Source: Chloroherpeton thalassium ATCC 35110
GTDB taxonomy: Bacteria; Bacteroidota; Chlorobiia; Chlorobiales; Chloroherpetonaceae
Direction: 5' to 3'
Assembly (NCBI RefSeq): GCF_000020525.1
Contig: NC_011026.1
Coordinates: 372,001 to 436,000, forward strand
DNA length: 64,000 bases
The notes below the pieces were generated by a model that was not told the origin of the DNA, did not search any database, and saw nothing but the letters and a program-made list of their open reading frames with translations. Numbering within the stretch: position 1 is the stretch's first letter; the number at the start of each line of letters is the position of its first letter. Below are positions 30,191 to 33,647 of this stretch, in pieces. The position numbers were made by a program, and so were the translations under genes.

Positions 30191-30452
30191 TTTCCAAAAA
30201 AGACTGAGATCCAAAGGAGAAAAGCCCAAAAGGAAAGATATTAATCCTGATAAAAAAATGCCGTATCATTTTTATCGAAAGTGATTTGCTCTCGTGAAAA
30301 ATTCATCGCACCCCAAAACGCGCCTGCTTCACACGGCAAAATTGCGCCATCATCTTTGACGAAAGCTTTTTCAATCCGTTCAATTTCGGCTTAAATTAAA
30401 AGCAGGTTGAAGTTTTTTTTCTCACCAAAAGTTTGAGAAGGAGTGATTGATT

Positions 30453-31760
30453 ATGCCGCAAAGACAGCACTCACCGTATTCAAAATCTGTCTACAAAGAG
30501 CCCGCGCCAGTACACGACCCCGAAAATCCGTTTGAATCCATGATGGAGCGCTTTAACCTGGCTGCCGAGTTGCTAAATCTTGATGAAGGGATTTACAATT
30601 TTCTGAAAATGCCAGCCAAACAAGTGATTGTTTCCATTCCGATTCAAATGGATAGCGGCGAAATTAAAGTGTTTGAAGGCTATCGCGTCATTCACGACGA
30701 CACGCTCGGCCCGTCAAAAGGCGGCGTGCGCTACGCCCCCGATGTGACGCTGGACGAAGTAAAAGCGCTGGCCGCCTGGATGACTTGGAAATGCTCGATT
30801 TTAGGCTTGCCTTTCGGTGGCGCAAAAGGCGCGGTCAAATGCGATCCGTCAAAATTGACACCAACTGAATTAGAAAAAATTACCCGTCGCTACACCGCCA
30901 GCTTAATTTCCATTTTTGGCCCTGAACGCGATATTCCGGCTCCCGACATGAACACCAACGAGCAAATTATGGCCTGGATTATGGATACCTATTCCATGCA
31001 CGTAGAACACACCGAAACGGCAGTTGTAACAGGCAAACCCGTTATTCTTGGCGGCTCGCTTGGAAGAATTGAAGCAACCGGACGCGGTGTCATGATTTCC
31101 GCATTGAGCGCTATGAAAAAAATGAATATTTCGCCAGAAAGCGCAAAAGTTGTGGTGCAAGGGTTTGGCAATGTTGGTTCTGTTTCTGCCAAACTGCTGG
31201 CTGAGCAAGGCTGCAAAATCGTTGGAATCAGCGATATTAGCGGCGGCTATTACAACCCAAATGGCATCGATTTGGAGAAAGTTCGCGAACATCTAAAAGT
31301 GCATCACGTGCTATCGGGCTTTCCAGAAGCGGATTCGGTAACGAACGCCGAATTGCTTGAACTGCCTTGCGATGTGCTGGTGCCCGCTGCAAAGGAAGAC
31401 CAAATTACCGCAAAAAATGCAGACAAGTTGAACTGTAAACTGATCGTGGAAGGCGCAAACGGCCCAACCACTGCCGATGCCGACCCAATCTTAAATGAAC
31501 GCTGCATCATGGTTGTTCCCGATATTTTGGCCAACGCTGGCGGCGTCACCGTATCTTATTTTGAATGGGTTCAGGATAGGCAAGGCTACTTCTGGCCGCT
31601 TGATCGCGTCAACATGCGCCTCGAACGCTTCATGCGAAACGCTTTCGATACGGTCTATGAAACCGCTTCTCGCTACAACCAGCCGCTGCGAATCGGCGCG
31701 TACATTCAAGCGATCGATAAAGTTGCCAGAACCGTACGGCTGCGAGGGATTTACGCCTAA
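30453..31760 (+). CDS. gdhA: Glu/Leu/Phe/Val dehydrogenase, probably glutamate dehydrogenase
   Basis: A 435-residue enzyme. It holds the substrate-site KGGVRYAPDV with the catalytic lysine in GGAKGAVKCDP, the NAD(P) Rossmann motif GFGNVGSVSAKLL (about 230-242), DMNTNEQIMAWIMDTYS and the C-terminal GANGPTTADADPIL region. It converts glutamate to 2-oxoglutarate and ammonia, or the reverse, and links carbon and nitrogen metabolism. Start at 30453 follows AAGGAG by about 9 bases; an alternative TTG lies two codons earlier. Downstream is the tandem repeat region with putative sigma-54-dependent small RNAs. Confidence 0.94.
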   Translation: MPQRQHSPYSKSVYKEPAPVHDPENPFESMMERFNLAAELLNLDEGIYNFLKMPAKQVIVSIPIQMDSGEIKVFEGYRVIHDDTLGPSKGGVRYAPDVTLDEVKALAAWMTWKCSILGLPFGGAKGAVKCDPSKLTPTELEKITRRYTASLISIFGPERDIPAPDMNTNEQIMAWIMDTYSMHVEHTETAVVTGKPVILGGSLGRIEATGRGVMISALSAMKKMNISPESAKVVVQGFGNVGSVSAKLLAEQGCKIVGISDISGGYYNPNGIDLEKVREHLKVHHVLSGFPEADSVTNAELLELPCDVLVPAAKEDQITAKNADKLNCKLIVEGANGPTTADADPILNERCIMVVPDILANAGGVTVSYFEWVQDRQGYFWPLDRVNMRLERFMRNAFDTVYETASRYNQPLRIGAYIQAIDKVARTVRLRGIYA

Positions 31761-31854
31761 AGAGTAATTACAAATAGTAATCAATTATTTATTTTGGTAA
31801 TCACATTCGCATGGCCAATAGCCAGAACACGACATAAATTCAGCGATCCAATTC

Positions 31855-31870
31855 TTGGCACGATTTTGGA
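31855..31870 (+). promoter_or_regulatory. Sigma-54-like promoter, unit 1
   Basis: TTGGCACGATTTTGGA holds the -24 element TTGGCACG exactly and a GG-N10-GA spacing; the -12 element is a poor match (TGGA). About 90 bases downstream lies the first copy of the terminator. Sigma-54 consensus is YTGGCACG-N4-TTGCW. Confidence 0.35.
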
Positions 31871-31881
31871 CTTATAAAAAG

Positions 31882-31963
31882 GTAGAAAACGTTCTTTGCA
31901 CTGTGTTTATTTCGGGTGATAAGGGTGGGCTTGCTGAGATGCTTTTCAGCAAGCCTTTTTTTT
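31882..31963 (+). ncRNA. Putative small RNA 1 of the tandem family
   Basis: Start estimated about 12 bases past the -12 element at 31869; the 3' end is the terminator T-run. The body (GTTCTTTG...ACTGT...TTTATTTCGGGTGATAAGG in pieces) is shared with two other copies, but the 5' leader differs from them. There is no open reading frame of note in it. This is a prediction. Confidence 0.35.
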
Positions 31964-31964
31964 A
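31926..31964 (+). terminator. Intrinsic terminator, copy 1
   Basis: Ten-bp perfect stem GGCTTGCTGA (31928-31937) with TCAGCAAGCC (31946-31955), 8-base loop, followed by eight T residues. Confidence 0.92.
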
Positions 31965-32064
31965 TCCCTAAAACTTATTGACGCTCGCCGACTGACTTCA
32001 TTTCCTTTCTTTTTGTATCATCCCTACTTTTTGTAAGCTTTTTAGGTAACACTTTTTTTTTTAC

Positions 32065-32082
32065 TTTTGGTACTTTCCAAAA
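32065..32082. promoter_or_regulatory. Palindrome, candidate activator site for unit 2
   Basis: TTTTGG-N6-CCAAAA, a perfect inverted repeat ending 41 bases before the -24 GG of unit 2 (32123). The identical repeat occurs at the same distance before unit 3. Location fits an enhancer site of a sigma-54 activator, but this is inference. Confidence 0.35.
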
Positions 32083-32120
32083 CCCTCGCTTTTTCACCCT
32101 TCTACCGGATTTATCCCACT

Positions 32121-32137
32121 TTGGCACGGCCTTTGAA
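32121..32137 (+). promoter_or_regulatory. Sigma-54-like promoter, unit 2
   Basis: TTGGCACGGCCTTTGAA matches the sigma-54 consensus at the -24 part (TTGGCACG) and TTG of the -12 part, with GG-N10-GA spacing; only the conserved C at -12 is replaced by A. A transcript from about 32147 would end at the terminator at 32203-32238. Confidence 0.5.
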
Positions 32138-32146
32138 ACTATATCA

Positions 32147-32238
32147 GCAGCGATGTTCTTACCTGTTCTTTGGTACTGTATTTATTTCGGGTGATAAGGG
32201 TGGGCTTGCTGAGATGCTTTTCAGCAAGCCTTTTTTTT
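32147..32238 (+). ncRNA. Putative small RNA 2 of the tandem family
   Basis: About 92 nt between the sigma-54-like element at 32121-32137 and the T-run of the second terminator. Sequence is almost identical to copy 3. The terminator stem forms its 3' end; the 5' half includes CAGCAGCGATGTTCTTACC. Confidence 0.45.
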
Positions 32239-32239
32239 A
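32201..32239 (+). terminator. Intrinsic terminator, copy 2
   Basis: The identical ten-bp stem (32203-32212 with 32221-32230) followed by eight T residues. Confidence 0.92.
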
Positions 32240-32342
32240 TCCCTAAAACTTATTGACGCTCGCCGACTGACTTCATTTCCTTTCTTTTTGTATCATCACT
32301 ACTTTTTGTAAGCTTTTTAGGTAACACTTTTTTTGTTTTTAC

Positions 32343-32360
32343 TTTTGGTACTTTCCAAAA
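32343..32360. promoter_or_regulatory. Palindrome, candidate activator site for unit 3
   Basis: Second copy of the TTTTGG-N6-CCAAAA inverted repeat, ending 41 bases before the -24 GG of unit 3 (32401). Confidence 0.35.
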
Positions 32361-32398
32361 CCCTCGCTTTTTCACCCTTCTACCGGATTTATCCCACT

Positions 32399-32415
32399 TT
32401 GGCACGGCCTTTGAA
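32399..32415 (+). promoter_or_regulatory. Sigma-54-like promoter, unit 3
   Basis: Same TTGGCACGGCCTTTGAA sequence as unit 2, belonging to the duplicated segment. A transcript from about 32425 would end at the third terminator copy (32481-32514). Confidence 0.5.
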
Positions 32416-32424
32416 ACTATATCA

Positions 32425-32516
32425 GCAGCGATGTTCTTACCTGTTCTTTGGTACTGTATTTATTTCGGGTGATAAGGGTGGGCTTGCTGAGATGCTTTTC
32501 AGCAAGCCTTTTTTAT
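32425..32516 (+). ncRNA. Putative small RNA 3 of the tandem family
   Basis: About 92 nt between the element at 32399-32415 and the T-run of the third terminator, with the same body and 5' leader as copy 2. Confidence 0.45.
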
Positions 32517-32546: not shown

Positions 32547-33647
32547 TCAGATTTTGCGGAGCTTTCTTTCAGAATAGCGTTCAAGGGCGAGTTCGATCAA
32601 GCGGTTAATCAGCTCAGTGTAGGAAATCCCAACCTGAGCAAACAACTTCGGATACATGCTGATCGAGGTAAAACCAGGAATCGAATTGATTTCATTGATA
32701 TAAATTTCATTCGTTTCTTTTTCCACAAGAAAATCCACGCGCGCCATTCCTTCGCAGTCAGCTGCCACAAACGCATTGAGCGCGGCAGCTTTCAGTTTCC
32801 CAGCAAACGCCTCCGATATTTGCGCAGGAATGATCACTTCGGATGAACCTTTCACATATTTTGCATCATAATCGTAAAACTCGTTGCAAGGAACCACTTC
32901 GCCAACGGCAGAAGCTATCGGCTCGTCGTTTCCAAGAACGGCCACTTCCATTTCTCGCGCGTTGATGGCTTTTTCAATCAAGAATTTTCTATCGTAAGCC
33001 AGCGCCAGCTCGATTGCCTCAATAAGCTCGTTGCGATTGTGCGCTTTTGAAATGCCAACCGAAGAACCCATGTTGGCTGGTTTTACAAACATCGGATAGC
33101 GAAGTTTCTTTTCCGCACGCGCCACCACAGAACCGCGATTTTCCTCAAATTCACGACGAAGAAACGCCAGGTATTCGCCGACTTGCAAACCGGCGTGCTC
33201 AAAACATATTTTTGCAACGGCCTTATCCATCGTTATCGCCGACGCCAAAACGCCAGATCCCACATAGGCCACATCGAACATTTCCAACAATCCTTGCACC
33301 GTACCATCTTCGCCATAGGGACCATGAAGCACCGGAAAGGCCACGTCAATTTTGGCGGTTCGGAAATCGAAACGAAACTGACTGTTTTGACACAACAGCA
33401 CAATCTCTTTTTCTATCAAATGGATTTCTTTTTTGGTAGGAGATTTAATGGCGGATTCAAAATCCATTGCCAAAATTTTTCGCGACGCTTCCGCGCCAAG
33501 CCATTTTCCCGCTTTTGTAATATAGATCGGCTGGATTTTATACTTTGTTTTATCAAGCGCATTTGCTATGGATCGAGCGGAAATCACCGATATTTCATGC
33601 TCGCTGGAGCGCCCACCGAAAAGCAGCGCCACTTTCTTTTTATTCAT
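32547..33647 (-). CDS. ddl: D-alanine--D-alanine ligase
   Basis: A 366-residue ATP-grasp enzyme beginning KKVALLFGGRSSEHEIS, the diagnostic Ddl N-terminus. It also holds FPVLHGPYGEDGTVQGLLEM (HGPYGEDG at about 109-116), KPANMGSSVGISKA (about 188-201), YDYDAKYVKG and INEINSIPGFTSISMYPKLF, which contain the metal and substrate ligands. It makes the D-Ala-D-Ala end of peptidoglycan stem peptides. The start at 33647 is an ATG. Convergent with gdhA across the repeat region. Confidence 0.96.
   Translation of the reverse strand: MNKKKVALLFGGRSSEHEISVISARSIANALDKTKYKIQPIYITKAGKWLGAEASRKILAMDFESAIKSPTKKEIHLIEKEIVLLCQNSQFRFDFRTAKIDVAFPVLHGPYGEDGTVQGLLEMFDVAYVGSGVLASAITMDKAVAKICFEHAGLQVGEYLAFLRREFEENRGSVVARAEKKLRYPMFVKPANMGSSVGISKAHNRNELIEAIELALAYDRKFLIEKAINAREMEVAVLGNDEPIASAVGEVVPCNEFYDYDAKYVKGSSEVIIPAQISEAFAGKLKAAALNAFVAADCEGMARVDFLVEKETNEIYINEINSIPGFTSISMYPKLFAQVGISYTELINRLIELALERYSERKLRKI

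Follow-up and report, generated by a model that had tools for sequence, protein, structure and literature searches.

The window, the 64,000-nucleotide stretch of the Chloroherpeton thalassium genome that we analysed (genome G000 in our collection), contains the gene for glutamate dehydrogenase, gdhA, and, converging on it, ddl. The gap between them is free of genes and holds three tandem copies of a putative small RNA (sRNA) gene. The features are as follows, numbered from the first letter of the window.

30447..31760, + strand: gdhA, glutamate dehydrogenase, an open reading frame (Pfam PF00208, E 9.9e-80; PF02812, E 7.7e-56), neighbour to the RNA genes and outside them
31768..31780, + strand: putative activator-site dyad of copy 1, TTACAAATAGTAA, starting 114 bases before the predicted +1 and found at the same place in relatives
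31855..31871, + strand: sigma-54 type promoter of copy 1, TTGGCACG-ATTT-TGGAC (GG-N10-GA); its -12 form, TGGA, is also that of G005, G007 copy 1 and G013
31882..31963, + strand: predicted sRNA copy 1, from +1 to the end of the U-run (covariance model E 5.2e-16)
31910..31925, + strand: conserved core of copy 1, UUUCGGGUGAUAAGGG
31928..31963, + strand: intrinsic terminator of copy 1, stem-loop and U-run
32024..32036, + strand: activator-site-like dyad of copy 2, CTACTTTTTGTAA, at -124
32061..32073, + strand: activator-site-like dyad of copy 2, TTACTTTTGGTAC, at -87
32121..32137, + strand: sigma-54 type promoter of copy 2, TTGGCACG-GCCT-TTGAA
32148..32238, + strand: predicted sRNA copy 2 (core 32185-32200, terminator stem 32203-32230; covariance model E 2.2e-15)
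32299..32311, + strand: activator-site-like dyad of copy 3, CTACTTTTTGTAA, at -127
32339..32351, + strand: activator-site-like dyad of copy 3, TTACTTTTGGTAC, at -87
32399..32415, + strand: sigma-54 type promoter of copy 3, TTGGCACG-GCCT-TTGAA
32426..32515, + strand: predicted sRNA copy 3 (core 32463-32478, terminator stem 32481-32508; covariance model E 5.6e-16)
32547-33647, - strand: ddl, convergent to gdhA

Every unit runs in the same order: GG-N10-GA element, leader, core and stem-loop with U-run. An earlier note on this DNA had described three copies of a stem terminator in a non-coding region, each preceded by a GG-N10-GA element, within a tandem duplication of about 275 bp whose first promoter and leader differ from the others while the 3' body is kept. 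All of this is borne out. The stem-loops (31928-31955, 32203-32230 and 32481-32508) are identical, the TTGGCACG boxes begin at 31855, 32121 and 32399, and the copies are spaced 275 and 278 bp apart. Direct repeats pair 31895-32062 with 32170-32337 (97% identical, spacing 275) and 32053-32236 with 32331-32514 (99%, spacing 278). Copies 2 and 3 have promoter and body in common, as a repeat of some 278 bp; copy 1 shares only the body with them, from 31895 onward, and the DNA upstream of copies 2 and 3 cannot be aligned with that upstream of copy 1. Our predicted starts are 31882, 32148 and 32426, compared with 31882, 32147 and 32425 in the earlier note. A dispersed repeat or mobile element is ruled out by the absence of copies scattered across the genome, which has these three only, all at the gdhA-ddl locus.

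The earlier note had proposed looking for the body and promoter in related genomes, including with a covariance model, and both searches found them. Families f1 to f4 and the genera (g numbers) are labels of our genome collection; f4, the main family of the order, is probably the Chlorobiaceae. A DNA search of 61 genomes gave one further copy, in G001, a second genus of the same family, again directly 3' of gdhA. There a 28-nt stretch, TTTCGGGTGATAAGGGTGGGCTTGCTGA, comprising the core and a stem arm, is identical to the window; the gdhA genes of the two genomes share 72% DNA identity and no exact run beyond 23. The covariance model, built from 12 copies, then matched all f1 and f2 genomes with E 1.7e-11 or better and the f3 genome G003 with E 5e-8; promoter and core of G007 and G003 were then verified in the sequence itself. 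The element is thus present in 12 of 12 searched genomes of f1-f3, the three smaller families of the order, as 15 copies in seven genera, two of the genomes having more than one copy. Mostly it sits just 3' of gdhA, and the relatives of this gene (73-78% protein identity) have the same architecture downstream in every f1 or f2 genome that carries one. The f3 gdhA has no element downstream, and G007, which lacks a gdhA ortholog, has two copies, one ahead of arsA, the other at a different site. In the f4 genomes searched with the model there was no credible match; such matches as appeared were weak, and both that were read lacked the core. We also rejected weak matches outside the order and second matches in G002 (C11) and G017 (C82), which have no GGGTGATGAGG core, no dyads and no convincing sigma-54 box (two of those outside the order do have GGTTGATGGGG). 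Exact matches to 18 nt of the core in other phyla (Nomurabacteria, Xanthobacteraceae, Gemmiger and Pseudooctadecabacter) come to about the number expected by chance in the collection searched.

The promoters tell their own story. At -13/-12 the window copies have GA where GC is expected, and TGG further replaces TTG in copy 1; the missing C had been remarked on in the earlier note, and orthologous elements in other genera turn out to have the full GC. A perfect sigma-54 consensus, TTGGCACG-N4-TTGC, is found in G002, G009, G011, G015 and G017 (genera g3 and g9; for example TTGGCACGAGACTTGCT), G007 copy 2 has TCGC at -12, and the GG-N10-GA form occurs in the window, G001, G003, G005, G007 copy 1, G013 and G019. 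Because GA is common to genera g1, g2, g4, g6 and one g7 copy, the comparison marks it as a real feature of the lineage rather than a defect of the window copies. Throughout, TGGCA and the G at -13 are invariant, at sigma-54 spacing. The C. thalassium genome has an rpoN gene. Taken alone, the promoter motif does not exceed chance there: TGGCACG-N4-TTG has seven exact matches against about six that we estimate for 3.29 Mb, close to the prediction from base composition, and three of the five matches other than copies 2 and 3 sit inside genes. Could a housekeeping promoter (sigma-70 type) or some other kind produce the RNA instead, with the -24/-12 likeness coincidental or overlapping? In copies 1-3 and in G001 the -12 box is indeed followed by TATA-like bases (TATAT or TATAA), and about half of the lineages depart from GC at -12, but those bases are not kept in f2, and the invariant positions at sigma-54 spacing, together with upstream dyads that fit activation by an enhancer-binding protein (EBP), make such a promoter unlikely.

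Those dyads were absent from the earlier note, yet they lie upstream of every window copy. The motif, TTAC-N5-GTAA with at most one mismatch, precedes the predicted +1 in 14 of the 15 copies, starting between -87 and -134, where 0.07-0.18 would be expected by chance per upstream region; the upstream region of G003 has none within one mismatch. A copy has one to three dyads, usually two, set 21-40 bases apart, as in the pairs at -125/-92, -113/-92 and -124/-103. Window copies 2 and 3 have dyads of their own, at -124 or -127 and at -87, while window copy 1, like the copies of G007 and G009, has a single dyad within one mismatch. When whole genomes are searched for two perfect dyads in tandem, five f2 genomes give the sRNA locus and nothing else, and G001 gives three matches, this locus among them. 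The other two G001 sites, L095 (C48:53291) and L096 (C54:15017), show no sRNA core; one lies just before a gene resembling PEP-utilising enzyme I and the other near a peptidyl-tRNA hydrolase-like gene.

Which protein might bind the dyads? C. thalassium encodes five full sigma-54 activator domains, whose orthologs in eight further genomes we identified as reciprocal best matches, giving a profile over nine. By this distribution the best-fitting candidate is the L082 type, an NtrC-type response regulator (response regulator, AAA+ and Fis-type helix-turn-helix domains), found in seven of seven checked sRNA genomes and in neither of two f4 genomes without the sRNA. The L080 type occurs in all genomes checked. 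NifA was rejected: L078, which is NifA-type, occurs in G001 and f4, and the sRNA-carrying f2 and f3 genomes have no reciprocal ortholog. So was the L081 type: of the sRNA genomes checked, G009 alone lacks it. At the L081 and L082 loci (G000:C1:859859 and 2317566) and their orthologs, conserved in the order, the sigma-54 contact loop reads GAFTDA instead of GAFTGA. One G002 paralog has GSFTDA, and a third group of NtrC-type activators in the order has GAFTNA. A dedicated circuit, in which an L082-type regulator, characteristic of these families, with its GAFTDA loop evolved together with the relaxed -12 element and has the sRNA as its main or only target, is a speculation that we think improbable; were it true, a whole two-component signal would be converted into one RNA.

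As for the RNA itself, its most striking part is the near-invariant 16-nt core, with consensus UUUYGGGUGAURAGGG. An alignment of 12 sequences shows 96% pairing over the terminator and a weak core hairpin. Changes on both sides of a pair number 19, all in the terminator, against a mean of 8.2 in shuffled alignments and at most five in slid controls. The core hairpin (helix 1) is 98.6% paired in the aligned genomes with one-sided changes only, which leaves it a conserved candidate structure, not proven. The sRNAs fold better than shuffled sequences (z from -2.4 to -4.8). Leaders vary more: a hairpin AGATAAC/GTTATCT in f2 (seen by eye and by folding) gives way to ACTATC/GATAGT in G009 and is weak or absent in f1, the window copies included. 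In G003 (f3), at L131 (C298), 117 nt of leader separate the predicted start from the core and include a long hairpin, GTGTAAAAGA...TCTTTTACAC. A small open reading frame in the RNA was considered and rejected by eye; f1 lacks the ATG found in the f2 core, and copy 1 and G001 do not preserve the frame MFLPVLWYCIYFG of copies 2 and 3. An Rfam search of the window and its relatives returned no match at gathering score, the best weak matches being unrelated.

Genes downstream of the element (named by eye, ArsA and Ddl excepted) change from genome to genome. An arsA-type ATPase gene follows on the same strand in G001 and most f2 genomes; in G003 it comes after a TenA-like ORF. G015 has a sugar-epimerase-like ORF. 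The next gene is convergent in the window (ddl) and for G007 copy 2 (a lipoprotein-like ORF). After the gdhA-sRNA locus of G009 (L051, C4) we noted a BchZ-like ORF. Since the downstream genes differ, the element is not the leader of any single gene, nor is it just the gdhA terminator. The first of these alternatives would have sigma-54 drive the downstream arsA past a conditional terminator, as the frequent arsA-type neighbour, TenA-like ORF or not, might suggest; convergent next genes in the window and at G007 copy 2, other genes in G015 and G009, and three tandem terminated copies, which make no sense for a leader, render it very improbable. The second would see mere terminators of gdhA read-through, duplicated by chance, with the TTGGCACG boxes incidental. 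The position of the element just downstream of gdhA in most genomes and the chance frequency of the promoter motif genome-wide speak for it, but promoter, dyads and core lie at similar distances in 12 genomes, G007 keeps two elements without a gdhA ortholog, and a terminator has no need of the conserved core. We regard this account as very unlikely.

What we are left with, at a probability of roughly 0.8, is that the window holds three tandem genes of one enhancer-activated, sigma-54-dependent, trans-acting sRNA. Each gene would be transcribed by sigma-54 RNA polymerase into an RNA some 80-90 nt long from a -24/-12 promoter of its own, switched on by an EBP presumed to sit on the dyads some 85-130 bp upstream; the intrinsic terminator would end the transcript; and the core would be exposed in a weak hairpin loop or as a single strand. 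Having several copies may increase the amount of RNA or divide its control among promoters. The earlier note had proposed a sigma-54-dependent tandem sRNA family, and among the explanations weighed here this one best fits the comparative evidence: full consensus promoters in other genera, the dyads, a covarying terminator and rpoN. Read at the level of sequence, promoter, dyads, core and terminator are conserved together as an independent unit. It is this conservation, the 28-nt identity across genera and the shared layout in 12 genomes, that makes the element significant, not the promoter motif alone.

Most likely the sRNA acts in trans, through pairing that we infer between the core and target mRNAs. 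We scanned nine genomes for stretches complementary to the core, using looser patterns in five, and inspected sites close to start codons; among those inspected, no gene came up in more than one genus. Such sites are about as frequent in C. thalassium as those of a reversed-pattern control (27 vs 28) and exceed the control in f2. Two single-genome candidates, leads rather than results, are ATGCCTTTATCACC at the ppk start codon of C. thalassium, whose duplex outscores 96% of shuffled controls, and, in G007, a site upstream of the gene for the L081-type regulator. Duplex energies with the leaders of gdhA, arsA, ppk and EBP genes gave no consistent signal, and an EBP-leader target in three genomes was dropped, the match falling in an apparent upstream tRNA gene. 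With no conserved mRNA target emerging from patterns or duplex energies, the RNA might bind a protein or the ribosome, a rival to this last step of the mechanism only. The weak core hairpin possible in all aligned genomes, though lacking both-side changes, would suit it, and GGGUGAU within the core might base-pair with AUCACCU at the 3' end of 16S rRNA. That match is only seven nucleotides long and was found by eye, and the mRNA search went by pattern rather than by genome-wide energy and accessibility; we consider protein or ribosome binding rather doubtful, and mRNA pairing the better reading.

How does the family relate to known systems? CrcZ and CrcY of Pseudomonas and Azotobacter are short RNAs with their own RpoN-dependent promoters, an NtrC-family EBP and more than one copy (PMC6292655). 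The resemblance to them drawn in the earlier note holds for promoter logic and multiple copies, features read here from sequence, and fails for family membership: Rfam gives no similarity, the AANAANAA-type CA-rich Hfq/Crc motifs are absent (by eye), and the Chloroherpeton copies stand in direct tandem, not linked to a cbrB-like gene. The Qrr sRNAs of Vibrio are likewise multicopy, with sigma-54 promoters activated by the NtrC-type response regulator LuxO, but differ in sequence, host phylum and dyad motif, and the Chloroherpeton locus has no quorum-sensing context. LuxO has been described as an NtrC homolog (PMC11407668). NrsZ of Pseudomonas, a sigma-54-type sRNA tied to nitrogen control, belongs to the NtrC/sigma-54 nitrogen sRNAs; it too lacks Rfam homology to ours, and the putative link to nitrogen here comes from gdhA proximity only, with G007 keeping the sRNA without a gdhA ortholog. 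A nitrogen or glutamate signal may be what the promoters answer to. Given the lack of homology, the different copies and context and the missing Hfq/Crc features, the sequences place our sRNA with CrcZ/CrcY or Qrr in promoter logic and in neither family. Open-access literature yielded no paper on sRNAs in Chloroherpeton or on a sigma-54-driven sRNA in green sulfur bacteria, and the family is apparently new within a known design, which it would extend to another phylum than the classical examples. With promoter, dyads and core defined, it offers a starting point for work on sigma-54 and on regulation after transcription in this lineage, and the GC and GA forms at -13/-12 make a natural series for studying what a sigma-54 promoter tolerates. 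Outside the window, at L016 (G000:C1:1479410), another TTGGCACG-N4-TTG box, TTTGGCACGAGGATTGTATA, lies just upstream of what by eye is an Hsp20-like small heat-shock ORF.
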